Part shown: positions 23,828 to 45,219 of the stretch, piece after piece
How positions within the stretch are numbered: the first letter of the stretch is position 1
Layout: each line of letters begins with the position of its first letter
Source: Polytrichum commune
Lineage: Eukaryota; Streptophyta; Polytrichopsida; Polytrichales; Polytrichaceae
Assembly: GCA_950295325.1 (NCBI GenBank)
Contig: OX485806.1
Location: forward strand, 16,244,001 to 16,308,000
Direction of reading: 5' to 3'
DNA: 64,000 nt
Position numbers and translations under genes: made by a program
The notes under the pieces: generated by a model
What the model was told of the DNA's origin: nothing
Databases searched by the model: none
The model's input: the letters and a program-made list of their open reading frames with translations, nothing else

Positions 23828-25000
23828 TATATATATATCCAATCATAGGTGCTAGTATGCATTGTTGCATTCTAATGATGGAAAAAGAAGAAGAAGAATC
23901 ATAGATGCTTCTTTTTTCTTTTTCTTTTTCTTCTTCTTTTTAATGTGAAAGGTAGATTGTGGTATTAGGAAGGCAGATAATAGGTGGTTTAAAGAAATGT
24001 AGAGAAGTAGAGTGATGTCTAGGGAGAAGTTGATGAAGACGATCGTGATTATCTTACCTATTATAAAAGTGAATATTTGTATCCTCATTGGATGATCATG
24101 TAGATCGCTCCAATTATGCTAATTGTTGCGCCTAGAATGGTTAATAAATCGTGAGCATGTAGTCCAATTTTTTTAGACATGTGTCTTTTTGGACATTTGT
24201 TCTTAGATCCACACATAACCCCACACCACTCAAATATAGGTGTCCGTTTAAGAGGTCAGTTTGAATAAGAATTTAATGCTAAAGATTGGGTTTACACTTG
24301 GGCCGAAGACCAAGAAATTCCAAAGTCGATTGTTCTTATTGGTTGAGAGTTGAATTTAGACCCAAGGAATCTGCACTAAGGTTCAAGTCCAAGATATGAA
24401 AAATTGAAGTGGCGTTAATGTGACATCATCTTTCTTGTGAAGAGTGCTAAGAAGTAAAAGCGTGCCCACCAAGCTCCCCAAATTTCTTGCTACCATTAGA
24501 CATAAGAGCTTAGGCCTCCTTTCCATTGAAGAGGTCGAGGGATTGAAGAAAGGAGCAATTGCATTGGCTAGGAGTCGGTTGAATACTCACACAAGTGCAT
24601 GCAAGTGCACTTTACACTTGAGCTTTGAGGTTGAGTGCTTGACCTTTCTACTAGATTGGGACCATGATGGATCTTATGGGGAATGACTATGACGGAACTC
24701 TTGCTCATATTTGACAACATGTTGGTCAAATATATAAGCTACCTAAGGTAGGCATGCCTAATTGGGTTATTGATCTTCATCGCTAGCCTTTGTTTGAGTG
24801 GTATGCACTTAGGCGTGGCTCCAAGAATAATACCAAAAAGACATGTATTTAAAAGAGATTGGACTATGTGCCTAGAATATGGTAAATGTTCTAGGTTCAA
24901 TAGTCATCATAATTGAGGGGACCTATATGACCACTTAATGAGCATGGGAAAGAGAAAAGGAAAAAAAGAAGGAAAAACTTCAAAGTCTTTTACCTTGACA
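22304..25000. other. intergenic DNA, repeats only
   Basis: No coding signal was found. It contains a repeat at 22670-22885 shared with TrpB2 intron 4, a (CA)n microsatellite at 23790, a CTTTTT-rich tract near 23910-23940, and family-1 repeat fragments at 24080-24260 (forward) and 24790-24960 (reverse). Confidence 0.55.
23790..23838. repeat. (AC)n plus (AT)n microsatellite
   Basis: About 18 AC units followed immediately by GATATATATATA. Confidence 0.9.
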
Positions 25001-27700
25001 TGCAATGTCTATTCACTGTCTCCCACTCATGTGCGCGTGAGCAGGAGAGTGGGGGCGGCTTAGTGCTTATTTTTCATATGTCGACCATGTGGTTAGTGTT
25101 AGGACTATGTGTTCTATATTAGTTTTGGGTTTTGGTATTAATAAGTGTGTTGAGTCAAGTGGGACCAGGGCTTGTTTGTTTTCAAATATCCTTTTGTTTA
25201 GGATTATGTGTGTTGGGTACCTTATAGCAATTTGGGAAAAGGATTCCAATAGTTTATAGATTTTGGAGTTGGAGATTTGTAGGTCTTGGAGGAGTTTATA
25301 TTTCTTGTATGTATAGTGCTCCTTATTCATTCCGTCATTATAGTAGGTGGTAGTAGAATTCACCCTAGTCGGGATAGGATCAGGTGGAGAATGGCGTATT
25401 TACCAAGTTTTCGGTTGGTGCCTTTTGCGGGGAACATATCATTGCAATAAGTGAGTTCAACTAATTGTACATTGAGGTTTGGGTTGGGTGTGAAGGGAGG
25501 TTTATTTATAGACAGGGCTCCTAAGTTGCATAATATATCGGGTTTATGCCGAGCTAGGCATGTACATCTTGGTAGATAGCATGTGCGTGGGAGTAGCCAT
25601 AAGGGTATGGTGTTGTCAGGTGTGCGGTCTTCAATCTTACCAATGTTGATTAGGGTGAAGCAACATATTGTGGGGTGGGTTAGTAGTGTGTTCGTTAGTG
25701 TGTGTATTGCTTTATTGTGTCGTTTTGTCCTTATATTGTTTATGTTTATTAGTGCAACATGACAGTAGGTGGAGGCATGTGTCATTTTGGTGGGATGTGC
25801 ATAGGTTACATGTTGGGGATATGTCTTGTTTGAGAATGTATTTTTTTTAGTACCTTCCTAAGTATCTTCGATATCTAAATTTGAGGGTTTGTGTTATTTA
25901 CACATCGGTTCTCCAAGGGGCATCGAAAATAATTTTGACCATTTTATGTGTATGTTTGTGTTGGAGAGCCATTTGTCTATAAAGGGTATTGTGTTGTTTT
26001 ATTTTTGCATGGGAGATAAATGCGCTTATGTATTCTTTTTTTATGTAGATTTTTCATGTTGCAGACTGAGCCATCATGTTGTGTGGATGTCAGGGGGAAT
26101 GATGGCCAATACGGTGCCTAATGGTCGATGAGATGGAAAGGGCCTTCAATGTAGGGTCATTCTACTCCTTGTTTGGCCAATTTATCAGCCTCCTCATTTC
26201 CAACAATGTTTGTGTGGGCTTTGACTTTGCAAATGGTAATATTGTGATGGGAGGTTTTTAGTGTATTTACTATTAGGGCTAAGAAGAGCTTATATGGGTG
26301 GTTATATTGGGGGGATGGGTTTCTTATTTGGTTGAGGAGAAGATATATGTTGTTGAGGCTATATGTGATTATGAATGTACGTGTTGGGACCGTTTTGGTG
26401 TGTTCCATGGCGATCCTGAGTGCATATAATCATGCTCTAAGAATATTGGGGTACCTTGGTAGGCGAGCAACAATATTGACTTGTAGTGGTCCATTGAAAA
26501 CTTTGGCTCGTGCGATATTACATTTTCCTTCTCCATCTAGTGGTGTGAAGTTGTAATTGGTGTGTGCCACTAGTCTTGGCCATTTGATAATTTTTGGGAG
26601 TAGGTCAAGGGTTGTTATATGGGTGTACCCACATCCTTTCCATTGGGTGGAGAAGGTTGGGCCTCGTGAGCGAAAGATTACATTTCTTTCATATGGAAAG
26701 TGGTAATGTGATAATTGCATGGGGACATGTGAGTGCACCGGAGAAATACGAGTGTGTGATTTGGAAGGTTTGTATGATTTTGTTTATAATTGATGATGAA
26801 AGTGTGTTATGGTTATGGATGAGGGGGGACATGGGTGGTTTGTGTCTTGGAGGTGGTTTGATGCATCGGTTGATTAATAAGAGAATTTCCATGACAAAGT
26901 CTTGTCTAGATGGGGAGAGGGTGTGGTTTTTGATGGGTGTATAGAGTGAGTATGTTTCCCATAGCCATGTTAATTTTTCAAGTGGTATAGGGGGTTTGGT
27001 AGCTTCCCATGTTGTCATGTATTTGGGCCAGGTGGTGTGTATTTGTATTGTGGGCGATGTGGCGATGATGTCTCTGTTTGGATTACATTCTTGAGTATGA
27101 AGGGTAAGGTGTGTTGGGGCAAAATTTTTGTCTATCGTGTGATTGCTGGGGTTTTAGGTGATTGAGTAATTTGTTGATTTATGTCTTGTTGTTTTATTTT
27201 TGTGAGTATGTAATGAGTAGTAGGTTGTGTTCATAGAGGATGGTGTCGGAGTTTAAGATTAGTGTTTGTGTCATCCATTTGAAGTGGTTGGTGTTTGGGG
27301 CTTGCCAATGGTAGTGAAATTTATATGTATGTTGTTCGGCTCCCATTTGTTTTAGTTTGTTTGTCTTTTTCTTTTTTCTTTTTTCTTTTTGGTGGATTTA
27401 AAGCTACGTATGTATGAGATGGGGGTGCCTAGGGGTTGTCTTATATCTTGGATGCAAGGTAGAGTTTTGGGGTTGTGGGAGGTGGTGGGGGATAATGTCT
27501 GGTATGTGATTGGTGGGAAGACAATAGTGGCTTGCAAAAGTGCACTTTTCAATATTTTAGATTTGGTATGAAATTTATCATAATTCTTTAACAGTGAGTA
27601 TGCGTGTGTTGGTGCGATCTTGGATTTGGGGTAGGGCGGCAATGTTGAAGGAAGAGAGTTTTTTAAGGTCTTTCTCCGTATTGGGTCTTTAATATGGGGT
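25000..27700 (-). mobile_element. decayed LINE-like retrotransposon, C-terminal part with RNase H signature
   Basis: Minus-strand open pieces lie at 27642-27352, 27018-26689, 26738-26430, 26408-26157, 25785-25360 and 25363-25067. They follow one another with frame changes, as in one decayed ORF. The clearest motif is ICKVKAHTNIVGNEEADKLA at about 26230-26175, matching the end of RNase H domains in plant LINE-type elements (His, then N-E-x-A-D). The last piece (25363-25067) contains IAIRYPTHIILNKRIFENKQ, homologous to a second copy near 48.5 kb. No catalytic reverse transcriptase motif could be read, so the 5' part is lost or too diverged. Base use is strongly C/A biased on the sense strand. 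It is a dead element; assignment to a LINE clade is inference. Confidence 0.55.
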
Positions 27701-27779
27701 GAAAGCGGGGTAAGATGGGTGTTTGTACCATTATTTATGATAGCGGGCAGTTTTTGAGACTAGATAGATACTGAAGTCT

Positions 27780-29269
27780 TTTTATTATTATGTATAGGGA
27801 TCTAGTGGTTGGTGATCTAGAACACGCTTGGATTTTAATTGTGGGAGGTGTTCAACTCCACCATATTATTGGCTATAAATTTCACCTATTCCTTGGTAAA
27901 TCTCGTCTAGTGGGCTTGGGTCATCGAGAAGAAGTCTATGGGAGGCGAACCAGGGTTCTGGCCTCTGTTGAGGCCACGTCGCCAATTCGAAACCTTGAAA
28001 ACGTTGTAAATCTACCAATCCTAGTATCTTTGCATTGCCGTCATTTTCTGTCTTCCCCGTGTTTTCCCTCTTCTTTCTTGCTGTTGCCGCTGCTACGAAT
28101 TCCTTGCTACGGCCACTTAGGTAGACACCAACTCACCGCCGAAATGTCTCTTTGAATCCCTCTTCTTTCAGCGACCGTCAATCTGAGGTAAGTCTCCGAC
28201 CTTGCTGTTGATTTTTTTACCCGTCTTTGCACTATGAAGGGACTTCTAATTAGCGACCAATTTCGAGCATTGTGGGCATGTAGAATTATCGTTTGCCCTT
28301 AAGAAGTGCGACAATTTCGTCCTTGTGGATTTGATCTGATTAGAAGCCCGAAGCAATGGAATTGGTCGGCATTGAGGTTGTAGGGATTATATTCACACAT
28401 GCGACGACATTAACATAATCGGCAATGCGTGCATTTTGGTCCTCGATCTTCTTCTATTGCGTCAACCCATTCGATTTGTTGTGTACAACTATTGGGCTTC
28501 AAAATTTTGGCAGAGCTAAAGTTGATGCGTTGCAAAGATAAAAAGTGCAGCTTTTTATCTTGCAAAACCCAGATCCAGGAACCAAGACCCAATTTTTTCC
28601 ACATGCAATGTAACCAGGGAAGGGAAGAAATTGAATAGAGAACTCTGGTGCGTTTTACGACAGAGACTTCGTCTGAAATATAAGGATTATTTAATTATCT
28701 GCAAATTAACTAAAGCAAGACTCGTAAGTTATAACTTATTAGGTGATGTTCCAAAATAGAGATCAGATGAATCAAACACTGAAAAAATTGTTCATGTCTA
28801 AACAATTACACCGGTGGTCAATATTATGAAACCACTGATATTTGTGGCAGTTCTCAATATGCAGACTTTGGAAAGGAACAGACCATAGCATTGCTGACAT
28901 TCTTTCTGCAAACAACTGCACGTCATCGCATGTTAGTTTTAGAAACCAGTCAGTGCAACATGCACAGAATGTTGGACGAGTGTAGGGTTGTTGGGTTTGT
29001 CTTCTCTTCGTGTTCACAACAGGAAGATTCGATTGGGATCCTGGTAGTAAACCAAGAGTCCGATCGCGGAAGCTTGTCAACAGTGAGCGAAAAGAGGGGA
29101 GGTGGAGGATTATATAGCCATGTGTCTGAAGAATGTCCGTCCCGGTTGCTCAGAATCCATGTCGGGGATGGGTTCTCCAATTGTGTTATGTGACAGTTCT
29201 GGATGGGAATTTGTAGAGCGGCGCGTGGTTCAAGAAAAAAGTATTATCCAGTGTGGATTGCACTGTACA
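27780..29269. other. unassigned DNA between the LINE-like element and the exon patchwork
   Basis: At 28060-28190 a C/T-rich stretch ends TCAATCTGAG|GTAAGTC, a consensus splice donor that could close a 5'-UTR exon, but no downstream coding exon could be linked to it. Minus-strand frames around 28772-29080 and 28950-29180 are open but unrecognised. The stretch may already be part of the patchwork that follows. Confidence 0.35.
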
Positions 29270-29711
29270 TAACACATTTCATGAGTTATGTACAGTGCTG
29301 CAAGCATTTGGAAGGCAGAACCATGATAATATAGTGGTGCTGGACGCATGAGTGATCTTTTCAGAATGTACTTGATTTTTTTTTTGAAGTTGATGTGGAG
29401 AATTACGGATTCTGTGGCCATGTGAATTTTGTTTATTTTTTATTGCTCTATGTAGGTATTTTCATCAAACTAAGAACTTCCAGTTGACATAGATAACGAA
29501 AATGTGGATGCACTTGCTCAGAACTTTGGCATTGTAATATACTGACAAATTTTCATATATTTTCAAAAAAATTCCAGGAGCTTTTTTGAGGTCGAGAGCT
29601 CATGTTATAAGCCAGAACAGTTTTACTATGTTATGTGAGGCTAAGTTTATGGTGGATGTCGACTTTGTAAATTATGCCGAGTTTGGACTCATCAGCTTTG
29701 GGTGCTTCCGA
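29270..29711 (+). repeat. duplicated segment A, copy 1
   Basis: About 440 bp, from CATTTCATGAGTTATGTACA to TTTGGGTGCTTCCGAG. It is repeated at 34283-34734 with about 90% or better identity by eye, and its central part again at 30281-30378. Copy 1 ends exactly where the DNA polymerase epsilon fragment begins, so the boundary is a rearrangement junction. Confidence 0.85.
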
Positions 29712-29712
29712 G

Positions 29713-29869
29713 CGACCCTGCACTTTTAGAACATGATTGGCGTTGCATTGTCTCAGCTTGTGGCCAACCATGCGACTGTGCGTGGAGTGAAAATTCATTG
29801 CTTCAAATTGTGCGTCAGCAGGAGCAACTTTACCATTTGCAGGACCTTGTCTGTGTGAGATGTCACATG
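29713..29869 (+). pseudogene. POLE: DNA polymerase epsilon catalytic subunit, C-terminal exon fragment
   Basis: The frame reads DPALLEHDWRCIVSACGQPC, then CAWSENSLLQIVRQQEQL, then YHLQDLVCVRCHM, and stops at a splice donor CACATG|GTAAGC. It matches the zinc-binding C-terminal region of the Pol epsilon catalytic subunit (DPAL...WRC...CGQPYD...LLQ(I/V)VRQRE...YHLQDLVCLRC). The rest of this 2000-residue protein is absent, and upstream sequence is an unrelated duplicated segment. It is therefore an isolated exon, not a functional gene. The cysteine pairs are kept; the Tyr of CGQPYD is Cys here. Confidence 0.8.
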
Positions 29870-30280
29870 GTAAGCAAATACAGATTTTTTTCTGTTTCAA
29901 TTCTGAGTTGTGTAGGTATATCTAGCTGTCCTCACATTTATTAAATGGCTTTACTAAGACTACTATTGGCAATAAGACCATGTATTGCATGAACTAGTTT
30001 CCAAACTGTCTTAATGTTTGTGTGGGACTAATGGTAGGTTCCATAGAAAAGACTTTTCGAACAAATGATGTCCAGTACTTTATCATACTCATAGAGTTTT
30101 CCTTAGACAGGGTTCTTGCATGGTTTACTCTTGCTTTCTTCTCTTTAGCCTGTGGATTGCCAAGAAGGTTCTTGCCAGGTTCTTGTGGCTGAGAACATCT
30201 TCGCTTCAATAAATCAAAGCCTTTGTAAAATTCTGCAAAGGTTCATTGCAGAATTCTGCAAAATTTCTCAAATTCGTAGA

Positions 30281-30378
30281 TGGAATAGTGGTACTGGACG
30301 CATGAGTGATCTTTTCAGAATGTACTTGATTCTTTTTTTGAAGTTGATGTGGAGAATTAAGGGTTCTGTGGCCATGTG
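30281..30378 (+). repeat. duplicated segment A, partial copy
   Basis: ATGGAATAGTGGTACTGGACG through GTTCTGTGGCCATGTGAATT repeats the centre of segment A (29330-29427 and 34350-34443). On the minus strand it adds an unrelated tail to the last exon of the NAP1 fragment. Confidence 0.8.
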
Positions 30379-30384
30379 AATTGA

Positions 30385-32904
30385 GAAGATGGAGCCCCGG
30401 GCTGTTTGATGATGAGATTCACTGGGCTCCCCAGATTGCTCACCTTGACCCTTCATAGCACCACCATTTGCATGAGCTGAACCAGTATACTGGCGGTTGG
30501 ATGGGTGAACGTGAACAACACTTGGCAATGAACTTTCATAATACATTTGGTAAATTGAGCGCATTATTGTGTGGGGTACATAACCCTCCAGAGTGCTTCG
30601 AGGTAGATAGGAAGTCATTTCACAAAGCTGATCAAGGAAGATCAATTTCACTACAAGTGGACTCCTGTCCATCAAAAAAGCACCAGGTTAGACCAACTTA
30701 CTCCCATATTATCAGATAAACTGCCTCACCTTGAAAGAGCAGCCTCTTTCTTTTGTTATGTTAACTTGATAAGATTGTGTATACATGTTGATCTTCTATT
30801 TTGCATATTTGAAGTCTCGCCTCACTTGAGAGAATGGTCAATGCTTGAGATTCAAAAACCTATACATCCTTCTAACAAAAACATGATTGTACACAAAAGT
30901 TGTCAACAGTCCTCAAGACATGGGCATTCCTATGGAGATATGAGATACCTTTGAGAATATTCTTAGCTATGCTTATAATGACATGTCATTACAGCAAAAT
31001 GCTAAGTGAAGCCAAATTCGCATGTATATGGAGTGCTTTATAGTATATGTTTAGAAGGGTCTTAAGCAGAAACCAAAAAACTAATGCAAAATCAGACCTG
31101 TGTGCATCATCCCAGGGTTCAAGGACTGTGGCAACAGCACACTGCAGAAAAGTTTTCATAGAAGCCTTTATGCTTATTTCCACATCTGCAGGACTCTCTG
31201 CACTTTGAACTTGGGAACCATCTCCCCGCATGCTTCTGCTCCCTGGATCTGATGCTTGCCTTTGCATCTCTTTTCCTTCTGCCCGTACCCATTCATTGTC
31301 AACCATAACAGCATTTATACACCTGTCCAAACCATTTCTCTTCCAATCAATTTCAGGTGCAGTGAAAAGATGAGCCTGATAAAAGAACATCTCCATGACA
31401 TTCTATGGCACCAATAGACTAAAATCCCTAACAGAAACAAGTGAAGCTGAAGGTTGTACTCAGGATATCCATTATGTGAGGTATGAGAGAAACACCTTGC
31501 CAAGCAATGGACATTAGTGGTAAAACCACCCGTGTGGATGCTGAGGGTGGTGGCAGTCCAAATGTTTGAGGTTATACATGACACAAATAGGAAAGGTAGC
31601 AGCGCCCACGTCTGATCACCAGCTCCTTCCATGTTACTCAAAATGCCATGTATCATAACAACATCTCCTTCTTCAACATCAATAGCACCAACTTGACTAG
31701 CAACAGCTGTCAACCGCAGGAGATTTGGTTTTTCAGGAATTGATTTTGGTGCATGCTTTGAAAAATCTGTCAAGAGGGAGAATAAAAGAGGAGTATTGGT
31801 CCTCAAGACCTGGGCTGTGGCCTCGGCTAGGAGAGCACGCATGCTAGGCATGTGACCAATACACAATGTGTTTGACATCAAAGTTCCCAACTCTTGCAAC
31901 TCCTGCAACATATTCTCTCGGTGCAGTTGACTCTATATGTTCCCAGCTAATGATTCCAGCACCTCTTTATTTGAGCGTAAGAAAGTATCAAGAGTGTCTG
32001 TAAGTGCTGTGAGTTGTGCCACCAAGCTATCGCACAGCTTATCAACATCATAAGGACCAAAGATCCTCACAAATGCCTTCAGCTCCGCTAAGTCTGCAAC
32101 CGACTCTGCAGCCACACGTCCAATAGGCCTTGTGCTTCTAAAAAACTTATCCAAGGGAGAGAATATGACTCCTGAAGCTTTTCCATCTTTTACCAAGTTC
32201 TCCACATACCAATCTGTGATTGTGCACACAACATCACCACCTGCTCCAACTTCTCGATCATCAGGGTGCAAGTCTTGCATATGATGTGGAAAGGACTCAG
32301 TTAGGAGAACCTCCCACACACCTCGTGTTAGGTCCAACTGTACATGTTGTTCCACAAGATGCACAATGCTCATGTGTCGCTGCAGCCTCCACTACAGATG
32401 GTCGTTGAAGATCACCATCCACCATAATTATACTAGCTAACCGTGTCCGAAAGTTTTTCACAACTCGATCCCTCAAGTACTGCAACCACATCAATGGAAC
32501 CAGAATGCACAAATTATACAGATGATTTCAAAACTATTTAAGCACTCAGCAGTTGCAACTTCAGCTGCCTGTCTAGTGAATTTCCCTGTACCACATAAAA
32601 CATATCACCCAGGTCATCAGAAACATGTACCTCCCGTGGTACAAACATGTGGTTGAGGACACGCAAAGGCTCCATCTCATTAAGCACTAAACAAAGACTA
32701 GTTAGTCTCTGGACTGCTGCCCCCAACCTGCATTCACAAGAGCAATTTTATTCTAGCAGTGAGACAGCAAGATAAAATATTGGAAATGAACATTGATATG
32801 TGCTTCTCGACCTGCTTGGCTAGATTATATTCCACATCAGCATCGCGGCCTTTGGCGCGCCCTGCTTTAGCCAATTTTTTGGACTCTGCTATATAATACT
32901 GGAT
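30385..32904 (-). pseudogene. NAP1: NAP1 (NCKAP1-like, SCAR/WAVE complex) 3' portion, broken
   Basis: NAP1 is a subunit of the SCAR/WAVE complex that activates ARP2/3 actin nucleation. Minus-strand exons are about 32904-32794 (ESKKLAKAGRAKGRDADVEY, NLAKQVEK), 32727-32631 (AAVQRLTSLCLVLNEMEPLR), 32479-31496, 31322-31098 (ISIKASMKTFLQ) and 30664 to about 30385 (VVKLIFLDQLCEMTSYLPRS). Splice sites are mostly intact. The lesions are clear. Between the first two exons, roughly 200 or more residues of the family are missing in about 66 bp. A frameshift lies at about 32375-32390, between DLQRPSVVE and HMSIVHLVEQH. An in-frame TAG lies at 31933-31935 after SLAGNI. The N-terminal half is absent here. 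The 3' end runs into duplicated segment A. A neighbouring piece of the same gene lies on the opposite strand at 35637-36219. Family assignment is confident. Confidence 0.85.
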
Positions 32905-32965
32905 GTCTTACATGGTCTTCTTGGATGAGGTTAGGTGGTAAACATCTCAATGAATTTTCTTGCAG

Positions 32966-33445
32966 GTGTTTTATGTATGTGACAGGCCTTCAGAGGATTG
33001 GACAGGTGGTAGAGGACATATCAATAAGGATGTCCTTTTGAAAGCACTACCTTCTCCATGCAATGATTCACTTATCCTGGTATGTATGTAGCACTTATTG
33101 TGATGATTCTCTTCTTTACATTCCTCATCTTTGGCATGTGATTGTTCAATTGTTCCATATGTTTTTTTAAAATTTTATTATTGGTTTGATTAAATGGTAG
33201 CACCTTGCATTTAGATGTAGATATTCATATTTGGAAAACCTTCAGTGTGATTTGTTAGTATTACAGGAATTTGGAGTATATGGTGGAACAAGCTATGCCA
33301 TTTGTCCAGCCACTGTGAGGATGTTCATTGTAAATAATTTATTTCATTTTGTTGATGCTGTGATCTACTACAACAGGATTGTGGACCTCCTGGGCTAATG
33401 AATTTTATTTCTGGAGACAAGGCCCCAGACAAATCTCAAGGACCG
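32966..33445 (+). pseudogene. CBR: NADH-cytochrome b5 reductase, two C-terminal exons
   Basis: Exon 32966-33079 (TTGCAG|GTG ... CTG|GTATGT) reads VFYVCDRPSEDWTGGRGHIN and continues to LPSPCNDSLIL. Exon 33377-33445 (CAACAG|GAT ... CCG|GTATGA) reads DCGPPGLMNFISGDKAPDKS. Joined in frame these give the NADH-binding end of cytochrome b5 reductase, normally LILVCGPPGMM..ISGDKAxDxSQG, with Asp in place of the usual Val before CGPP. The upstream FAD domain and the last exon are missing, so it is a gene fragment. The second exon has a damaged duplicate at 36509-36577. Between the two exons lies an exon-like stretch that is also duplicated. Confidence 0.8.
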
Positions 33446-34187
33446 GTATGACTAGTTCTTGGTTTTCACAAAGAAGTGTTCAACCCCGGGTACGCAACTC
33501 CCGCATTATGTGGTCCTGATTATAATCACTTATAATGCGTTTTAGTCCAATATTGAGTGACACAATTTGTTTTAATGTAGGAAACCCTTGTAGCCCTTCT
33601 AACAAGGAATCCAAAAATGTAATTACATATAGGAAATGAATATATTTTGAAGCATATAATTGCATTAAAAACCTAATTGTATGATTTTTTTTAATACATG
33701 TACCATAGGTCAAACTACCCAACTTTTTGGACTTTTTAATAAAAATTTAACATTGTGAATGAATTATAATTTTAATGGGAGGCAACTATTCGTGGCTTAT
33801 AATTTTAATGGGAGGCTTAATAAATATGCAACCCAAAATTTTTTTCATCTCATTTATTTAATTTGGTCTTCACCCAACTTTTTTTTCATCTCATTTTATT
33901 TAATTTGGTCTTTACCCAACTTTTTTTTCATCTCATTTTATTTAATTTGGTCTTCACCCAACTTTTTGATCATTTTAATTTGATATAATTTTTACAAAAG
34001 CCGTCCTCTAAGCCGTTTTAAGTACGATGCCCCCTGCGTATAATATGGGAGTTGCGTACCCGGGTGTTCAACATACTATTTGTCCTTGATTAGTGGTGAT
34101 TTCTAGTGGTTTAGGGTTCAGGCTGAAGCCATTGAATTGTTTAATTATACTAGTGAGAGGGTGGTCTAAACGTCTATACTTTCAGGC
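33191..34187 (+). repeat. duplicated segment C, copy 1, split by an insertion
   Basis: The segment runs from TTAAATGGTAGCACCTTGCA to CTAAACGTCTATACTTTCAG and matches 36322-36730. It is interrupted at 33485-34064 by a terminal-inverted-repeat element; the duplicate at 36.3 kb lacks that element and shows the empty site. Confidence 0.85.
33485..34064. mobile_element. 580-bp terminal-inverted-repeat element with 8-bp target duplication
   Basis: Termini CCCGGGTACGCAACTCCC and GGGAGTTGCGTACCCGGG are perfect inverts, and the inversion extends about 7 bp further with two mismatches. TGTTCAAC flanks both sides (33477-33484 and 34065-34072). If one base is moved the duplication becomes 9 bp (GTGTTCAAC), so hAT-type (8 bp) and Mutator-type (9 bp) both remain possible. 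The interior is non-coding, with two copies of TATAATTTTAATGGGAGGC and three of a 41-bp unit containing CATCTCATTTTATTTAATTT (33843-33965). Confidence 0.9.
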
Positions 34188-34282
34188 ATTTTCTTAAGAA
34201 TGGGTCTGATTATTTGCCACTGTGACAAACAATACTCAGGTAAGTTTAATTTAGTCTGTACACTTTAAGAGTGCTTAGCATG

Positions 34283-34734
34283 TCACATTTTATGACTTAT
34301 CTACAGTGCTGCAAGCATTCTATAGGTTGGAAGGAAGAACCATGATAATACAGTGGTGCTGGACGCATGATTGATCTTTTCAGAATGTACTTCATTCTTT
34401 TTTTGAAGTTGATGTGGAAAATTTAGGGTTCAGTGGCCATGTGAATTTTGCTTATTTTTTATTGCTCTATGTAGGGATTTTCATCAAACTAAGCACTTCC
34501 AGTTGACATAGACAACGAAAATGTGGATGGACTTGCTTAGAACTATGGCATTGTAATATACTGACAAATTTTCATATATTTTCAAAAAACTTCCAGTAGT
34601 TTTTTTGAGGTCGAGAGCTCATATTATAAGCCAGAACTGTTTTACTATGTTTCTGTGAGGTTAAGTTTATGGCGGATGTCGACTTTGTAAATTATACCGA
34701 GTTTGGACTCATCAGTTTTGGGTGCTTCCGAGCA
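34283..34734 (+). repeat. duplicated segment A, copy 2
   Basis: It matches 29270-29711 almost throughout and ends with the same TTTGGGTGCTTCCGAG. The next bases differ (ATGGAGGCC here, the Pol epsilon exon there). The short frame after the junction (34735-34818) begins MEANIVSLICGEDGIESIVA and is unrecognised. Confidence 0.85.
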
Positions 34735-34807
34735 TGGAGGCCAACATTGTTTCGTTGATTTGTGGGGAAGATGGGATTGAATCCATCGTCGCTCTTCTCT
34801 GCAAGTT

Positions 34808-35220
34808 TATTTTGTAGTACAAACTTTTTCAAAAACTCATGCTAATTGTTGTTGCTACTGCATTTTGTTTCTCAAACATTCAAAGAGGCAGTTTGGTTGT
34901 TCTTGGCAATGTCTCTGTTTTTGAAATTAACGTAATTTCAATCTGTGATAGATTCTGCACTCACAGTTACGTTTGTGGATCTATGGAGAAAATATCTCCT
35001 GTGATCTACAATATACTTTCAAAACTTCTCAGATGAAAGAAATGCAACACATACATTCAACGCACATTCCATCTCAACCTCACAACTCCAGTTCTCCTTC
35101 ACTGAAATTTCAATACATTATATAAAACTCTCTTGCGAGAGCAATTCAATTTGACCTATTAGTATACAAGGGAGCCTATCATGACATCCTCATATTCCTA
35201 AAGCACTTCATTTAGAAAAC
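34808..35220 (+). repeat. duplicated segment B, copy 1
   Basis: TTATTTTGTAGTACAAACTT through AACTACTTTTGCGCACTGGCC matches 36731-37165. The copies differ at scattered positions and by small indels. No protein function was recognised in the frames it contains. Confidence 0.85.
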
Positions 35221-35636
35221 TACTTTTGCGCACTGGCCAGGGAGATGTTTCAGCATAATCGGTTATGTTTCATTTGTGCGAATAATCAAGAGATTTGAAA
35301 CAGAGAGAATACAAAGGCCTAATGGCAAATGTTGCGGGATTGACATGTTTGGATTTTATTTGTATGAGACATCAAAACTCACTAGATTCACTGATTTTCA
35401 TCCTACGCATAATTTGTTGGAATGTCATCTTATCTTTTCATACGGTGAAGTGATTGTGGAAGTGACTTAAATACAGCTCAGAGAAATGTAGATGACATGT
35501 TTAGTTTTGAGTTGTGAAGAGGTGCCACAGGGATATGACTTATGTTTTACTTTGCTGGAGATTGCTTTTCTTGAGGTCTTAAGGTTATTGTACTTGGTTG
35601 TACAATAATTAATAAGTGATGTTGGTGTGATACCAG

Positions 35637-36219
35637 ATATTGGATGTTGTAGGACCTACAGTGCTTCTTGGCTCAGATTTCCAAAGGCTGCGCAGTGAAG
35701 GTTATCTTAGTCCATATCATCCTTGGTACCCTGAAAAGCTCACCAATTCAGCCCATCCTGCAGTAAGTTTTATTTTATGGGTCTTTACCAAGTATAGCAG
35801 CCTTTACTCATATTTAGGTGTCTGACAAGATTATCCCATGTTACAAAGAGGTTTTAGGCCTGTCAACTTGTTCGTGAAAAATACTCCCTGTTACAGAAGT
35901 TGCATATGATGCTTAATCCTATCATCACTAGGCTGGTTGTCGACAACACTGAGATGGAGAAATTTTGGAGGACTTAAAGTTGTGCTTTACTGGTCTGTCT
36001 TTTAAATTGTTCATCATTCTTTGTGATGGCATATTGTCATGTGCATTACTTAGTCAAACATTAGTTTGTTCGGGCATATGAGTGCTTACTTATGATTTTT
36101 TGATCTGTTAGAGAGCACAAGAGCTTGTGCACATTGAAGCATACCGTAAATGGGCACTCATTGGGTATCTAGTATGTCCAACATAATTTCTTCATCCTGG
36201 ACCAGTTGACATAGCCATG
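35637..36219 (+). pseudogene. NAP1: NAP1 (NCKAP1-like) central exons on the opposite strand
   Basis: Exon 35637-35762 (ACCAG|ATA ... GCA|GTAAGT) contains VVGPTVLLGSDFQRLRSEGY then LSPYHPWYPEKLTNSAHP. Exon 36112-36219 (TTAG|AGA ... ATG|GTGAGT) contains RAQELVHIEAYRKWALIGYL and, after an in-frame TAA at 36184-36186, HPGPVDIAM. In plant NAP1 the order LSPYHPxYP...LTNSAHP...RAQ...GYLVCP...DIA lies just upstream of the ESKKxAKxGR block found at 32.9 kb on the minus strand. The two parts of one gene are thus in opposite orientation about 3 kb apart. Identification rests on remembered family motifs. It is non-functional. Confidence 0.7.
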
Positions 36220-36321
36220 GTGAGTAATTCAGAAGTAGTAGCTCTTTGTAATGCCTGCACTCAAGTGACATCATTGGATTTACTGTTGGCATGTATTTGT
36301 ATTGAAGACTTTAAGAGCACA

Positions 36322-36730
36322 TTAAATGGTAGCACCTTGCATTTAGATGTAGATATTCATATTTGGAAAACCTTCAGGTTGATTTGTTAGTATTACAAGA
36401 ATTTGGAGTATATGGTGGAACAAGCTATGCCATTTGTCCAGCTACTGTGAGGATGTTCATTGTAAGTAATTTATTTCATTTTGCTGATGTTGTGATCTAC
36501 TACAACAAGATTGTGGACCTCTTGGGCTAATGAATTTTATTTCTGGAGACAAGGCCCCATACAAATCTCAAGGACCGGTATGACTAGTTCTTGGTTTTCA
36601 CAAAGAAGTGTCCAACATACTATTTGTCCTTGATTAGTGGTGATTTCTAGTGGTTCAGGGTTCACGCTAAAGCCATTGAATTGTTTAATTATACAAGTGA
36701 GAGGGTGGTCTAAACGTCTATACTTTCAAG
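36322..36730 (+). repeat. duplicated segment C, copy 2 (empty site)
   Basis: It contains an exon-like stretch 36378-36461 (CTTCAG|GTT ... ATT|GTAAGT; 28 codons, LQEFGVYGGTSYAICPATVR), unrecognised but open, and a damaged copy of the cytochrome b5 reductase exon at 36509-36577 in which the acceptor CAACAG|G has become CAACAAG, shifting the frame. At 36612-36620 the sequence GTCCAACATAC is uninterrupted where copy 1 holds the 580-bp element. Confidence 0.85.
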
Positions 36731-37165
36731 GTTATTTTGTAGTACAAACTTTCTCAAAAGCTCATGCTAATTGTTGTTGCTACTGCATTTTGTTTCTCAA
36801 ACATTCAAAGAGGTAGTTTGGTGGTTCTTGGCAATGTGTATGTTTTTGAAATTATCATGATTTCAATCTGTGATAGATTCTGCACTCACAGTTACATTTG
36901 TGGATCTATAGAGAAGATATCTCCTGCGATGTACAATGTACTTTAAAAGCTTATCATACGAAAGAAATGCAACACATACATTCAACGCACATTCCATCTC
37001 AACCTCACAACTCCCAGTTCTCCTTCATTGAAAATTCAATACAGTATATAAAACTGTCCTGCAAGAGCAATTCAATTTGACCTATTAGTATACAAGGGAG
37101 CCTGTTATGACGACCTCATATTCCAAAAGCACTTTATCTAGAAAACTACTTTTGTGCACTAGCCA
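36731..37165 (+). repeat. duplicated segment B, copy 2
   Basis: TTATTTTGTAGTACAAACTT followed by the same order of blocks as 34808-35220. It directly follows segment C copy 2, whereas copy 1 of B follows segment A copy 2, so the segments have been shuffled rather than simply duplicated in tandem. Confidence 0.85.
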
Positions 37166-37927
37166 GGTAGATGTTTCAACATAATCGGGTATGTTTCATC
37201 TGCGCGCATAATCAATTGCAACGCGTATTGTTGCACTGCACCTACATGTGTGATACAATCTATTCAGAGTCATACATAAGAGCTTGTCATTGTGCATATC
37301 CTAAAAGAGGAATTAAACGAAGTTATAGCGCTGAACAAAAATAAAGCTCTACTCATGTCATAAATCAACAACCCTGATTTTCTCACACAAACAAGCCTTC
37401 AAACAACTTAATATGTCGAATTCAATAGCTTGGTTGAAGTAAGGCATAACTAATATGATGAGGTTCGAAAAGAGATACACGAACGAATTTGAATAAGGCG
37501 TATGCAACGATTTCAACCATGGGATCGGTCGTGGTTTCATAGAAGTGATATGCATGATTTTTGGTCAAAACATACGAATTCTTTTTTCAAACATTTATAT
37601 TGTTGTGGAATATGTGGCGTGACAAAGATTTAGAGTTATAGTACCAATCATTTAGGAGTTGGGGTTATAGTATCAACTTTGTGGGTGATGCATAATTTTG
37701 TAATGTTGTTCTTTTTTTGTACCTTACAAATGGAAAAAATATCAACCCTCAAGTAAATGGGCCATAAATGGACACTTTTACTCTGCGCCTACTTTTTGTA
37801 GGATATGTAACTCATAATAATTTTCGAAACAAGTTCTGAAATAAAATCATTTAAGTCCAAACTTACAAGGTTCTTCACACTTGAGGTAAGAAGATTAATA
37901 TTTATAAACTTTTCGCATGATTTGCAG

Positions 37928-38068
37928 GAGCCAAGTATACTGACATGTTATGTCTGGCTGTGGCGATGTTGGGAGCATGAATTTTTACAGCATAGTAGTA
38001 ATCCATCACTGCTTCGTGCAGTTTTCTATGCTTATGGATGCGATTACTTCCAGATCGGTTTACTCAAG
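37928..38068 (+). pseudogene. probable ABCC (MRP-type) transporter exon fragment
   Basis: An open 47-codon exon with acceptor TTTGCAG|GAG and donor CTCAAG|GTGCAT. The second half reads NPSLLRAVFYAYGCDYFQIG then LLK, resembling the start of the first transmembrane domain of plant ABCC10/ABCC13-type transporters (PSLLRA...AYGWPYxxLGLLKVxND). The usual Trp is Cys here. No following exon (VNDxxxFAGP...) could be found, and the segment lies at the right end of the exon patchwork, so it is treated as a captured fragment. The family call is tentative. Confidence 0.5.
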
Positions 38069-40740
38069 GTGCATGAGCTCAATTTGTTAAATAATAGAAG
38101 TGTGATCAGAAGGCTCCAATATAATTTAAGTACGTGCACGTATGTTGAGTTTCGCAGCTTAGAGTTATCCTTTAATTTAATGGGATTTTTTTCGGGAGTT
38201 GGTCCCCCATGATTTTCCGTCCGCACGAAGGATGAAATTCGTCAACTTCCGGCTTTGCCAACTTCCTTGCGGACTTCTTCTCCCACCAGCGGTAGGCCTT
38301 TGGCCCCTAGCGGCTCGTTGGGTTTTCTACCTAGTCGGCTACCATCCCTTTGAACATGTTAATCGTTTTGAGGAGTCTATATGGTTTAGGTACACAAGTT
38401 GGTTCATCATATATTTTTCTTCCCCATCATCTTCGAGATTGTCCCTAATACTTTGGTTATAAGCCCTGCCATTGTTCAAACATTATAACAACTCGCAAAA
38501 AGGTTGTACAAATCCATAAGAAAACAAAATGCTAAAAGGTCCAAAACATTTGAGAATGGAAATAGAAATTGATGATAGAAACACCATATTCAAAATTTTG
38601 GGAAAATTCCATGATTTTGGGAAAATACATTTTAGGTCTACTCCACCTAAACTGTCATCAAATTGGGAGACTGGAAATCTCCCAAAATTTCGAATATGGT
38701 GTTTAGACAATGAAAATATATAGGACAACCTTAAACACAAAACCTTAACCCCCAAACAATAATTAAGGAGTAATGATGTGTTCATAATAGAGCTATAATA
38801 GCATCTAATTATTCAAATAATATATGTTGTTGTGCCATTCATGTGCATAGTTTGCTTGAAATAATTGCACTTAATCCAATGGTATCAATAAACCAATTGC
38901 GTGAACTTGACAACGTATGTGGGAATTTGTGGATTTTGTGGATTTGTCTTAATTGATTGTTTGAAGGGCCCAATAATTCCAACATATATACAATAAACGC
39001 ACCAATAATTGAGTGGTATGTGCATAGGTGAGGATATAAGAATAATCACCAAAAAAGAGGTAATAAAAAAATCAATGACAAAAAAAAGACCCATAGAAGG
39101 TCCAAATTAATGCTAGCATGGATTGGACTTGCTAATTATCTCGTACCAGTTTGGTGTTTTATTTCATATCCTACAAGAAGTGGATGCTAGTAGAAAAATA
39201 TATGGAAAAAAACTCGGATAATGGTGTTGTAGGTGTGGATTTCTAGGCCGGACATCCAGGCTAGGGCAGCGGGGGTCGACATCGGAGTTGGGTTTATCAC
39301 CCTCAAGTACCAGACCTAGTGGGCAAAGGGGTTGGGTACCGGCATCCCCCACTATGCCGGGGTTGCCAGACATGGCATCTACCCTTTGGCAATACCCATG
39401 CTAGTGAGGATGCTCTAATGCACACATTTTGCACATAACATGGGAGATGGGTCATGAATGGTTAAGGTAGAAAAATAGAAAATGGTGAAAATAAGCTAAT
39501 TCGGTCATAAATAGTGGTTTGAAAATTGTGCAATCTTTTTAAGAGATGGAGTAGAGGAGACGATGAGGAATGCAACGTGTCTCGTAAATTTATTTCTTGT
39601 AATTATTATTATTTTTCCAAAGAAACAAGTACATCAAACCTCCTACTTGTACAACAGAGTCTCTTTGATTTGAGCATCAAAATATCCAATATATGTACGA
39701 ATGCACACAAAATGGTTAACTCAATGGCACCCAAAAGCAATCCCAAGTGGTGTGAAACCTGATCAATCTAGCCAATCACTGCATTCTTTTTATGCCATCT
39801 TTTTTATAATTCGGCATATTGGGTCCACACATTGACGAATCATTCTACTCCTAGTCTAGTGCACCAATAGTGATCATTCATCGTTTTCCGTTTTTCTACC
39901 TTATTTTTTCCAATAAGCCCACTTCTCCTAGGATATGAAATGCGTGGTGGTTAGCGAACCCACATTGAGGCCACAACCACTTTCCTTTGAAGCTCATATG
40001 AAAATATCATTCATTATCAAATTGACAATTTGTTTGCTCATCAAACGGTCATATGGATCCTTCAATTATATTGATTGTTGAGTCTAGAATGGTTCTCATA
40101 TTTCGAGCACATAATCCAATCTCTTTTAAACATGTCTTCTTGGTTTCCATTCTTGGAGCCACACCTAACCATATGTCACTCAAATATAGGTGTCATACTA
40201 GGATAGGTAACGGAATTTGACACGTCTATCTTAGCCCACCTACCCTCCTCGTGGTTAGACAATCAAACAACCTTACTTTCTTGACACCTTGACAAACAAG
40301 GATTTGACACGTGACACAAAATGACACCATATGAAAGGTATTGTAAGGTAAACCTCAATGGGAAACCTATGACATCCCAACACAACCAAAATCACATTTG
40401 ATACTCTCAAAGGAGGCCTTTCTTATTAAAGAATGGAATTCTTTCCACTTCACGGAAAGAACCTAGATTACCCTTACCTTACTGACTTTCTCAAATGTGA
40501 ATTTGAATCGTACTTGAAGCAACCATTAACACCACCCCCAACACAAAAGCATCATTGCTTAGTGCACCTCAAATCATAGACTTGCCATCAAAAGTGGCTA
40601 GTGGTCAACTGTCCCAATCCCTAAAAACAACAAATCATATCAATTATGCATGCTTACAATGTAGTTTACTGCCTATGTTGCGGTGGGTGGGCTCTTGGTT
40701 TTTCCGTCAAGTAGAGAGAACATTTCAGGCCTTGGACAAC
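38069..40740. other. intergenic DNA with family-1 repeats
   Basis: No host gene was recognised. A GC-richer patch at 38215-38345 has no supported coding meaning. Family-1 repeat copies occur at 39080-39190 (reverse) and 39905-40215 (forward, with CTTCTCCTAGGATATGAAAT and CTCAAATATAGGTGTCATAC). Confidence 0.55.
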
Positions 40741-41275
40741 TAACCGACTAATTCAATTATTAGTTAACTAGTTGCCTTTCGTAACTATAGATTTTCACGA
40801 TTTTACTTGCCAAAATTTGTAGTTAACTATAGTTGTTTTAAATTCGGACTGCCAAAAAATCTAGTTAACTATAGTTATATTTAGTTAACTAAATATGTAA
40901 TTAACTAAAGTTGAGCGGAACTTGTTCACGGAATTATGTTGTAGTGTTGTAGTGTCACTAGTGTGTTATTTGTGTTGATGGTGTACATGGAGGTTATTCC
41001 AAAGCCCAACACTGTTAATGATCATATAAAGGCATTTCTTGATGATCCTCAATGGCCCGAGCATATTAAAGACCCTCAATTGAAGCAAATCAAGAGACGA
41101 ACTTCTTCCAATATATAGTAATACTTGAAAATTTTCTAGTTAACTATAGTTGTTTTTGAATAATGTCTTCAAATTTTATAGTTAACTATAGTTATTCTTC
41201 AAATTGGTTGAAATTTGTCTAGTTAATTATAGTTGTTCCCTAAAATATATTGAAAAAATGGAGTTGATTATAATT
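40740..41275. repeat. cluster of TAGTTAACTATAGTT motifs flanking a small ORF
   Basis: The palindrome-like motif TAGTTAACTATAGTT or a close variant occurs at least five times (near 40758, 40832, 40863, 41139 and 41181, with variants near 40880 and 41220). The blocks lie on both sides of a short coding-like island at 40978-41118. Arrays of short subterminal motifs are typical binding sites for DNA-transposon transposases. Confidence 0.6.
40978..41118 (+). CDS. small open frame of unknown function within the motif cluster
   Basis: An ATG-to-TAG frame of 46 codons, starting MVYMEVIPKPNTVNDHIKAF and ending QIKRRTSSNI. It is less AT-rich than its surroundings and uses varied codons, with a Pro/Asp/Lys-rich composition that looks protein-like. 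No family was recognised. It is probably a remnant of the protein of a DNA transposon whose subterminal repeats flank it. Expression or function cannot be judged. Confidence 0.3.
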   Translation: MVYMEVIPKPNTVNDHIKAFLDDPQWPEHIKDPQLKQIKRRTSSNI

Positions 41276-42149
41276 ATTCTGGCAGTTGTCCAAGCGGAAT
41301 AAAACCGCCAACCCCTTCATTCAGATTTGGGTACCTCTCCACTATCATTTGGTAGTTTAGGGTCATTTCGGACCATATTTAAAGATGTTACAATATTATG
41401 CACATTAGAGCTTCTTTTGAAGTTGAGTAACATTAAACAAAAAGTTGTAAAAAATGGATTTTAGACTACATCCATATAGTTGGAATAAGGGTCATTAGTT
41501 TTGATCTCTACCAAACCACTTCAAAATTGCATTTATCTTCCAAAAAACTTTAAAAAAAAAACCCCAAGAATCAACACAATTTGATATTTGATTTCCTTGG
41601 TTGGAGTTCGAGTTTCATAGCTCTTGGGAATATGAATTCAAAAACATTGATGTCATTGACTTTGTTACTTTCCTAGAACAAGAGTTTTTGTAATAAAGAA
41701 AAAACTCAAGGATTCCAACCACTTCAAGATCCATAAAAAAAAGTTTTGATACTTAATTCTACTGCCCTAAATAGTCCTATTATTGTGGGCCACAATAATT
41801 TTATAGAGCCCGCGCTATCTTTCATAATAAGAATAATTTGGCCACATCAATTTTCAACCCATGCCAAATTTCTAGTATGAAATTAGCGTGGCCCAGATTG
41901 AATTCTTTTTTTTGGGAAAATTAACATAGAGATTATTTTATTTTGTGTTATTTTTGTTCTAGGAAAAATATCTAAAGTGTTGGTTGGAATTCTTCGTGAA
42001 GAGTTAGGGGAAGACCCGGGGTCTTGGACCCACATTAATTCCACCCACACTAATAAGACTATTTAGTGTAGTTTGTTTGGATCTAACGTATCAATTTGCT
42101 CGTTCCAAGTGCAAGGAAAAAATAGAAAACATTAGAAATTAATACTTTG

Positions 42150-42450
42150 TATTGAAAGATTCAATAGGAATAGAGAAAAGATTGCACAAACATTCACACA
42201 TACACAAAGGCATATGAACAATGCTTGGAGTGAGATAGTTTTCCTCACCCCCGGCCTTGCCTTTTATTCATAAGTTTAGGTTACATTGTGCCGGCCAACC
42301 CTAGCTTGGTGGCCAACCCTAACTTCGGCGGCCAACCCTAAACCGAGCGTTGACTTCTCGGTTTTCGTTGACTTTTTATTTACCAATGCAACATTTGACC
42401 AAGAGCTACATTAAGGCTTTCTTTCTCCATTCAAAGTTTTTCCTTCTACA
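42150..42450 (-). repeat. copia 3' LTR
   Basis: From TATTGAAAGATTCAATAGGA to CTCCATTCAAAGTTTTTCCTTCTACA on the + strand, about 93% identical by eye to the LTR at 46582-46898. Its inner edge abuts the polypurine tract. Confidence 0.92.
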
Positions 42451-43135
42451 CTCCCACTTTGCGAATTGTCAAAGACTTCTAAGTCTATTTCCCTACTTAA
42501 TGAATGATGCCTATCCTTTGCTAATGCTTTTGTTAGTACATCCGCTATCATATGCTCCGTAGGACAATAACTCAAACATATCTCTTCCGTCTCTAATTTC
42601 TCCCTAATGAAATGGTGTTGGATGTCGATGTGTTTGGTGCGGGAGTGATGCATGAGATTCTTAGCAAGTTGTATGCAACCTTGGTTATCACACATGATGG
42701 ATGTGGCTCTTTCTTGCACATATTCCACGTCCGCTAATAGTTGTCGTAGCCAAATCGCCTCTTTTGTACATTGGCTAGTAGTCATGTATTCCGCCTCCGT
42801 TGTGGACAATGCAATGGTGGGTTGTTTCTTGCATTTCCACGAAATGGCTTCACGGCCCACAAGAAATACGTACCCCGTCGGTCATTGGTGTCGCCCGCCC
42901 AATCCGCATCGCAAAATTCTATCAAAGATATGTCGTTACCTCCAAGGAAAAGTTTGAGTTCCAAACTCCCTTTCAAATACCTCAAGATACGTTTCACGGC
43001 CATCCAATGCGACGGACCAGCCTTGGCCATGAATTGACTCACCGTACTTACCGCAAATGCGAGGTCCAGCTGTGTGCCCACCATGGCATACATGAGAGAT
43101 CCTACCGCCACTTGAGAATAACCCTTTGCCACCAA
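42411..43135 (-). pseudogene. copia RT C-terminus and RNase H domain
   Basis: The minus-strand frame 43135-42782 starts LVAKGYSQ and passes straight to VGSLMYAMVGTQLDLAFAVS. The frame 42860-42411 then gives the RNase H domain: ALSTTEAEYM, DNQGCIQLAKN, HHSRTKHIDIQHHFIREK and MIADVLTKAL. A 1-nt shift separates the two near 42860. The catalytic palm of reverse transcriptase, including its YVDD site, should lie between GYSQ and VGSLMYAM but has been deleted. Confidence 0.9.
42451..42460 (-). other. copia polypurine tract
   Basis: The minus strand reads AAAGTGGGAG directly before the 3' LTR start TGTAGAAGG. This is the usual plus-strand priming site of copia elements. Confidence 0.8.
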
Positions 43136-44449: not shown

Positions 44450-44455
44450 CCGATG

Positions 44456-45219
44456 TTATTTGCCTTCAATGCATGCTTCGCAAACCAAAGGCGAAGGATA
44501 AGAAACTTTGGTGAGGTCGATGCTGGTCACCATGCTCCGGAGGGCACGTACGCCTTTCTCGTTCAAATGACCAAGGCGGCGGTGCCAAAGTTGGAGACCT
44601 CCGTCTCCTCCATTAGATTGCACCAAGTTGGCCACATCCATTCCGTGTACCTTTACAACATGCAAGTGATACAAATTTTCCTCCCGATGTGCAATGACAA
44701 CGGGATGACCATCGGAAGCCCGAATGTGCATTCGTTGATGTTGAATTGCACCTTCAAACTGCTCGACACAAGTTTGCTCACCGAGAGCAAATTGGCATGC
44801 AATTTCGGTACATGGAGGCATTCATTGATGCGGATCTTATTAATCTTGCCTCTCACCATCACCTCCGTCACAATGGATCCAATACCGATTGCCTCCAAGA
44901 TGCTATCATCTCCCAAATGTACACTTCGTGAAGTGAGTACCTCATATGTGTCGAATGCGAGGCGATGAGAGGTCATGTGCTTCGTTGCTCCGGAATCCAT
45001 TATCCATTCCGACATGCTCCACGCATGAGGTGTGTGTTGCACGGTGAATGCAAAATCGGCGTCATCCTTCACAATCTTGGCGTTCTCCCTCTCCTTGTTC
45101 TTGGCCTTGTAACAAAACCGGGCAATGTGACCCAGTTTGCCACAATAAAAACACGTTCGTGTGCCTTGCCTAATTTGGCGTGAAGACGATGTATCCATCT
45201 TACCTTGCCGCAACATCAT
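44456..45219 (-). pseudogene. copia zinc knuckle, protease and GAG-pre-integrase region
   Basis: The frame 45219-44653 contains the zinc knuckle CFYCGKLGHIARFC, the protease active site WIMDSGATKHMT and the LHVPKLHANLLSVSKL block. After a frameshift, the frame 44821-44456 gives the GAG-pre-integrase domain (LWHRRLGHLNEKGVRALRSM, CEACIEGK). A stop separates it from the integrase core at 44449. Confidence 0.9.

Follow-up and report, generated by a model that had tools for sequence, protein, structure and literature searches.

Host gene pieces within the element

We analysed a 64,000-nucleotide window of the genome of the moss Polytrichum commune (assembly GCA_950295325.1, contig OX485806.1, forward-strand positions 16,244,001 to 16,308,000; feature coordinates below are those of the window), which contains a 10,395-bp element on the plus strand (27924 to 38318) carrying pieces of several host genes and, by its ends and relatives, very probably a non-autonomous transposon of the Helitron2 type. 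The original prediction for this DNA had described a patchwork of exon fragments from at least four unrelated nuclear genes; that patchwork is real, and all five of the pieces it named lie close to where it had placed them. Searches covered 408 Mb of the genome in seven large contigs (C1-C7) and scored best candidates only, so that all copy numbers given here are lower bounds. LEAFY (PF01698) had four matches in this genome, and among five solved sequences a piece of its DNA-binding domain was closest to chain 4bhk, the Physcomitrium patens protein, as would be expected of a moss.

Four donors were located elsewhere in the genome, at about 94-97% identity (NAP1, POLE, WDR11 and a reductase-like gene). 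A C-terminal exon of POLE with its intron (29714 to 29986, plus strand) was 95.3% identical to a donor at C7:34.82 Mb (L040), which matched DUF1744 above the Pfam cut-off (E 1.7e-16) and the POLE zinc finger below threshold. Adjoining it, a WDR11-like intron (29977 to 30239, plus strand) was 96.2% identical to a donor at C7:31.0 Mb (L041; PF23751, E 1.8e-110). NAP1, here NCKAP1/HEM (PF09735), was represented by three pieces, with 3.1 kb of the parent left out between two of them. On the minus strand (30383 to 32892), 30383 to 32800 was 96.6% identical to parent positions 8496-6074 and a separate 97-bp piece (32796 to 32892) was 93.8% identical to 2958-2862, while a piece in the opposite orientation (35412 to 36304, plus strand) was 96.3% identical to 1674-2568. 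In the parent (L035, C4:20.95 Mb, 4.7 Mb from the window) the pieces found in the window share one orientation, and further Nckap1 exon matches there are free of stops. Pieces coding for Nckap1 were detected in the parent, in the window and at 10 further loci (17 matches). The nucleosome assembly protein family PF00956, which shares the name NAP1, was discarded as irrelevant, PF09735 being the right family. Exons and introns resembling cytochrome b5 reductase (32884 to 34216, plus strand) were 96-97% identical to a donor at C2:39.918 Mb (L039) and are split by a nested terminal inverted repeat (TIR) element into 32884 to 33484 (96.0%) and 34066 to 34216 (96.7%). A second reductase-like copy (36321 to 36728, plus strand) was 94.9% identical to L039 4456-4863 and 96% identical to both 33189-33484 and 34064-34184. 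The name of this gene derives from one sub-threshold match to NAD_binding_1 (PF00175) and otherwise from inspection by eye.

Across these pieces, compared with the donor genes over the captured parts, BLAST identities ranged from 93.8 to 96.7%, introns included. Capture must have occurred at the DNA level, as first proposed, because introns were copied, and retroposition is thereby ruled out. The fifth named piece has a different history. An exon within the element body (37928 to 38068) had been considered a probable ABCC transporter fragment; Pfam named neither of the two ABCC-like open reading frames, and the label is our assumption, made from sequence similarity. Elsewhere in the genome the exon had 25 matches, spread over 24 places; in a count by eye, 19 of these places lay no more than 1 kb from one of the listed right termini. 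Of the remaining five places, two were 88-91% identical and could be copies without a listed right end, one was 74% identical, one 66% over 29 amino acids, and one, on C2, was a gene-like exon with 56% identity over 41 amino acids. Recent capture was rejected on account of the 19 places near right termini and the 56% identity of the C2 exon, and we regard the ABCC-like exon as a long-standing component of the right end in this family. Donors were thus located for the POLE, NAP1 and reductase-like pieces first proposed, whereas the ABCC-like exon is older family sequence.

Self-comparison confirmed the duplicated non-coding segments that had been noted among the gene pieces. Segment A (29273 to 29713, plus strand) is 91% identical to 34284-34733 and 92% identical to positions 7516-7964 of a copy that also carries a Rep gene (L036), and a third, partial copy (30285 to 30382, plus strand) is 96% identical to 29331-29428. 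Segments A' and D (34223 to 35289, plus strand) are 92% identical to L036 7454-8520, and the right end of the body (36727 to 38318, plus strand), which holds the ABCC-like exon and a Rep N-terminal remnant, is 90.8% identical to L036 8033-9599. In a copy at C5:14.2 Mb (L043) the arrangement is simpler, with NAP1, reductase, body and right end in that order, and in the copy at C4:17.91 Mb (L042) everything between the first reductase copy and the second is missing; the duplicated segments are therefore the element's own body plus one repeated capture. Pieces that the original prediction had overlooked are the WDR11 intron (29977-30239), two Rep/helicase remnants (35288-35413 and 37466-37630), the nested TIR element (33485-34064) and the ends of the element.

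The nested TIR element, 580 bp long and no part of the Helitron, has 18-bp perfect TIRs (CCCGGGTACGCAACTCCC) and an 8-bp target-site duplication (TGTTCAAC). With 14 other copies listed at 94-98% identity, it was probably active recently.

A DNA search with 27800-38300 returned 64 matches on C1-C7, mostly at 91-98% identity, among which are copies of the nested TIR element as well as the donor genes themselves. Chance is excluded because the matches span hundreds to thousands of bases at such identities and occur at many loci. POLE and the WDR11 intron, which are separate at their donors, are joined in the window and in the copies at C3:1.744 Mb and C4:17.916 Mb (5 matches), so that the same exon combination does occur in other copies; further copies hold differing combinations of pieces. 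We examined 11 joints between pieces by eye on BLAST boundaries. At 10 of them the pieces either share 0-3 bases or are separated by 3-16 bases of filler, while the joint at 30240-30284 is ill-defined. These few shared or filler bases are why we consider that the pieces may have entered by read-through of the 3' terminator, or by template switching with end joining. Capture through read-through of a missed 3' terminator has been shown for Helraiser, according to the available text of that study (PMC4778049), and by analogy the same process could have operated in the window element.

Termini, class and Rep/helicase relatives

The ends of the element, which the original prediction could not find, were located at 27924 and 38318 by alignment of copies and flanks. 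The element begins with TCGAGAAGAAGTC and ends with CTCGT, inserted between T and T, and the left block TCGAGAAGAAGTCTAT from 27924 and the right block ending in CTCGT at 38318 were common to all aligned copies. BLAST alignments of five other left-side copies started at 27916-27924 and those of eight other right-side copies stopped at 38319-38323 (two of the eight have the same flank), in each case around a single shared block; a ninth right-side locus falls short of the end. Two right-end copies 0.43 Mb apart (L009 and L010, C5:2.723 and 2.296 Mb) have flanks identical over 300 bp, reflecting either segmental duplication or duplicated assembly. Allowing up to three mismatches, the genome contained 151 left termini and 89 right termini, and reversed controls gave none for either. 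Pairing covered 100 of the 151 left ends. For nine of these a right end follows on the same strand no more than 25 kb away, against means of 0.13 and 0.23 after random shifts of the two left-end sets, delimiting elements of 3.8-14.6 kb; the paired ends comprise eight of the 27 exact left ends and one of the 73 listed with a single mismatch. Of those 73, 63 form a sister group in which GGCTAACC replaces GGCGAACC, and the known right end does not occur within 25 kb of any member of this group.

Several features of these ends point to Helitron2. When the 5' end is compared with the complementary strand of the 3' end, the longest word in common is an 11-bp asymmetric terminal inverted repeat, GAGAAGAAGTC, which lies 2 bp from the 5' end (27926 to 27936, plus strand) and 36 bp from the 3' end (38272 to 38282, minus strand, reading GACTTCTTCTC on the plus strand); none of 1000 single-base shuffles reached 11 bp. 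Twenty right ends were fetched, 10 of them long enough for the 3' repeat to be checked, and it was exact in eight of these and had at most one mismatch in all 10. Shortly 3' of the repeat lies a subterminal palindrome (38294 to 38306, plus strand; family form GGGCCTTTGGCCC, GGGCC-TTT-GGCCC, exact in 14 of the 20 fetched right ends), the first base of which is mutated in the window copy. T was the third base before the left end in all 15 fetched left ends, and CTCG was followed by TT in all 20 fetched right ends, though the search pattern itself ended in TT; when all 89 right ends were read by eye, 84 ended in TT and five in TA, TG or TC. Two unoccupied sites, rebuilt from the swapped flanks described below, read TCAT^T and TTGT^T without target duplication. 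The canonical Helitron features 3' CTRR and A^T insertion were absent from the element's ends, which have only the 5' TC in common with canonical Helitrons. The end comparison revealed no long TIR and the flank reconstruction no target-site duplication, and Rfam returned no match at the gathering threshold. A search for CTRR ends would miss this element because its ends are of the Helitron2 type, inserted at T^T.

Putative coding relatives share the right terminus. Of 34 genome matches to Helitron_like_N (PF14214), seven are followed on the same strand, at no more than 25 kb, by the right terminus, against a mean of 0.10 for random shifts; two of these seven Rep-bearing loci were read. At C1:7.76 Mb (L037), Pfam identified Rep (PF14214, E 5.5e-23) and a PIF1 helicase (E 1.8e-19) with stops between the frames; the Rep piece resembles that of Helraiser (7lcc, E 7.6e-10). 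No matching left terminus for this locus was found among the left termini listed. The second locus, L036, has a PF14214 match and helicase frames that appear similar by eye, and is more broken than L037. L037 also carries a piece of the ribosome-biogenesis gene Nop14 (PF04147, E 9.9e-24) at its positions 8223-8528, between the Rep gene and the right end. Within the window element, 35288 to 35413 (plus strand) is a remnant of the Rep/helicase gene, with 71% amino acid identity over 42 residues to L037 and 92.6% DNA identity to L036 3592-3712, and 37466 to 37630, in the element body, is a 55-residue remnant of the Rep N terminus with one stop and 62% amino acid identity to L037. With such remnants inside it, the element therefore descends by deletion from one that coded for Rep/helicase.

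Taken together, we assign a probability of about 0.9 to the interpretation of 27924-38318 as a non-autonomous Helitron2-type rolling-circle transposon, a figure that covers the element and its captures. On this reading it is a relative, with internal parts deleted, of an element coding for Rep/helicase, and it took in the ABCC-like sequence early and, over several rounds, pieces of Nckap1/NAP1, POLE, WDR11 and the cytochrome b5 reductase-like gene; it would then have been copied by a Rep/helicase acting in trans. Its ends, its place in the family, its donors and its composite make-up are shown directly by the sequences. Some observations sit less comfortably with this assignment. Only seven of the 34 Helitron_like_N matches pair with this right terminus, the rest belonging to other families or having lost the terminus, and both Rep/helicase copies read contain stops, an intact gene not being seen in either. 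Similarly, for 72 of the 73 listed one-mismatch left termini no right end of this kind occurs within 25 kb. Most of the left ends listed presumably belong to relatives whose right end differs, or else their right end has been lost. The palindrome of the window copy is degenerate and the end-fold scores are weak (z -1.52 for the 5' end and +0.50 for the 3' end); moreover, the predicted 5' hairpin (GGCCTC/GAGGCC) sits further in and excludes the 5' inverted repeat.

Other origins for the patchwork were weighed against the Helitron2 interpretation. Pieces of at least four different genes within 9 kb could be exons of intact neighbouring genes brought together by misassembly or local duplication, yet the donors lie on C2, at two places on C7 and 4.7 Mb away on C4, and the same combination recurs at other dispersed loci with common termini. 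The chance of such an origin is vanishingly small, and the outcome that the original prediction had named as fatal to its proposal, namely misassembled intact neighbours or a lack of other copies and termini, is contradicted by those same dispersed copies and common ends. That proposal, of a Helitron or a Pack-type element, holds in its first half: ends, Rep/helicase relatives and copies are Helitron-like, though not of the canonical TC...CTRR and A^T kind, and the suggested TC...CTRR ends or long TIRs are not the termini of the element, which has CTCGT at T^T instead. Pack-MULEs too carry host gene fragments, as the available part of one report states (PMC13317346), but capture by a Pack-MULE, CACTA or other TIR element is extremely improbable here given the asymmetric ends, the absence of a long TIR, the lack of a target-site duplication in the reconstruction from swapped flanks and the Rep/helicase remnants inside.

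A further possibility, and a very unlikely one, is that selection maintains the chimera as a domesticated gene. Some frames are open (for example 31936-32391, minus strand), pN/pS between the Nckap1 piece and its parent is 0.52 over both coding stretches, and those of its stretches that code for Pfam domains are 97.3-97.6% identical to the parent compared with 95.0-96.7% outside them. However, the coding part of the Nckap1 piece has a 5-bp deletion that shifts the frame and one stop, besides 24 mismatches over the 997 aligned bases of its main stretch; pieces occur in both orientations, and other copies hold other combinations. Because changes in the parent, which is itself constrained, enter into pN/pS as well, even debris should give a value below 1, and the Nckap1 piece is read as non-functional debris.

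Swapped flanks of two inverted copies

The sequences flanking the window element do not belong together. The left flank (X1, 24924 to 27923, plus strand) is a G/T-skewed domain cut by the element, and its last 255 bp are a dispersed repeat found at 23 other places with 73-88% identity. The right flank (Y2, 38319 to 38504, plus strand) is a different dispersed repeat. For both, the continuation lies beside the copy at C4:17.91 Mb, whose left and right flanks are here called Y1 and X2. When the window flanks were joined (457 bp) and searched against the genome, 40 matches were returned, 38 of them outside the window (23 to the left flank and 15 to the right). The joint was spanned by none of the 38, of which 32 ended within 2 bases of it and six ended 4-20 bases short; this empty-site query was made for the window copy only.

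We read 13 of the 38 outside matches. At seven loci the sequence past the left-flank repeat was the right flank of the C4:17.91 Mb copy, and at six loci the sequence before the right-flank repeat was the left flank of that copy. In a formal test, re-paired flanks crossed the joint at every locus (X1 with X2 at 7/7, Y1 with Y2 at 6/6), while the pairs as assembled, X1 with Y2 and Y1 with X2, did so at 0/13 each. The restored sites, as read at other loci, were GGGTCAT^TGAG and CTTTGT^TTGG, and show T^T insertion with no duplication. Base composition pointed the same way, the G/T-skewed domain to the left of the window element being carried on beside the other copy: GC skew was 0.34-0.55 over the 3 kb left of the window element, where AT skew reached -0.43 (24924-27923), and 0.39-0.49 for 2 kb in X2, compared with -0.22 to 0.19 over the 4 kb right of the window element. 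The flanks of the window copy and the C4:17.91 Mb copy are thus swapped, and the window flanks do not derive from one insertion site, because re-pairing them with those of the other copy restores unoccupied sites.

The distance between the two copies is 1.63 Mb, and they face opposite ways, as an inversion requires. It is likely, judging from these sequences, that two inverted Helitron2-type copies recombined and inverted the 1.63 Mb between them, leaving breakpoints that can be read to the base as exchanged halves of target sites. After its insertion, the window copy would have recombined reciprocally with the inverted copy, and the intervening DNA would have been turned around. This scenario is weakened by the sign change of X2 skew past 2 kb and by the far flank Y1, which is not neutral throughout (-0.41 to 0.03), and both flanks are repeats. 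It also draws on a single assembly, which leaves room for an assembler or scaffolder to have crossed over within the near-identical inverted elements of a chromosome that is in fact uninverted. Inverted repeats are the classic place for misjoins, and these copies are 97.7% alike over 5.3 kb. Against such an error, there is no N in the window or in the loci around the other copy (L042, L058 and L059), hence no visible scaffold gap at either joint, and large indels and 2-4% of sequence divergence set the copies apart, making them separable by long accurate reads. We regard an assembly error as possible but unlikely, and recombination between the two copies as the better account of the exchanged flanks.

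Beyond the right flank, the window contains other repetitive DNA. A high-copy repeat at 40719-41294 accounted for 43 of the 45 matches in a DNA search with 38100-41600, at 80-90% identity. On the minus strand, 42150-46900 holds reading frames that by eye resemble those of a Copia retrotransposon, between direct repeats of about 300 bp that are 90% alike, and a four-fold 100-bp tandem array (45981-46377) lies within this region.

Relation to known systems

The Helitron2 group is not new to land plants, because Helitron-5_SMo, whose suffix we take to denote Selaginella, is a member. Its classification, and the description of the group that follows, come from the available text of Bao and Jurka 2013 (PMC3627910). 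Helitron2 elements start with T and have asymmetric inverted repeats of 8-15 bp, the 5' one 0-2 bp from the end and the 3' one about 20-30 bp from the end and immediately followed by a palindrome; insertion of Helitron-1N1_CRe is between TTTT and T/C and leaves no target duplication, whereas the algal members CRe-1,2,3 have target duplications of 7-19 bp. The window element agrees in its 11-bp repeat 2 bp from the 5' end, its 3' palindrome, its initial T and the absence of a target duplication, in the last respect unlike CRe-1,2,3. It differs in the position of its 3' repeat, 36 bp from the end, in its apparent target TNNT^T and its cargo from several genes, and in that no 5' hairpin containing the repeat was found.

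Closer parallels in some respects are FoHeli1 and FoHeli2 of Fusarium oxysporum (PMC5148889), which also have Helitron2-like ends, with a 12-bp repeat, a 3' repeat 38-51 bp from the end and a target (TNAT^T or TNAT^A) close to the TNNT^T of the window family. That study found no evidence of an important role for capture in the FoHeli elements, whereas captures are the main content of the window element. Helentrons and DINE-1, as far as the accessible description goes (PMC4067079), share insertion at TT, subterminal inverted repeats and a 3' palindrome. Unlike Helentrons, the family showed no endonuclease domain in the seven Rep/helicase frames of L037, a weak absence as these frames are broken; downstream, in L038, there is a GIY-YIG match below threshold (E 0.00045), which is not fused to Rep/helicase.

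In maize, fragments of several genes, introns included, can be present in a single Helitron. The canonical Helitrons of that species are known to have captured many host genes (available text of PMC13317346), and they resemble the window element in being non-autonomous and carrying captured host sequence; unlike them, the window element is without TC...CTRR ends and A^T insertion.

The inversion has its nearest counterpart in Galileo, a TIR transposon of flies, for which exchanged flanks are the footprint of rearrangement. As the part of the report available to us describes it (PMC2775673), Galileo inversions in Drosophila arose by ectopic recombination between two transposon copies, as we propose here for a Helitron in a plant. 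A literature search of titles and the beginnings of abstracts returned none about inversions made by Helitrons, although plant surveys of Helitron2 may exist; searches on Polytrichum with Helitron and on HLE2 with moss returned nothing useful.

Canonical Helitrons and Pack-MULEs are the best-documented agents of gene capture in plants, and the family described here combines multi-gene capture with Helitron2-type ends. Exchanged flanks provide a simple genome-wide test for rearrangements due to Helitrons, in which left and right flanks are paired across copies to see which pairing restores an unoccupied site. If the proposed inversion is true, it postdates both insertions and can be genotyped. 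Ultimately, one gene-capturing Helitron2-type family would then both shuffle exons and rearrange chromosomes within the same moss genome.

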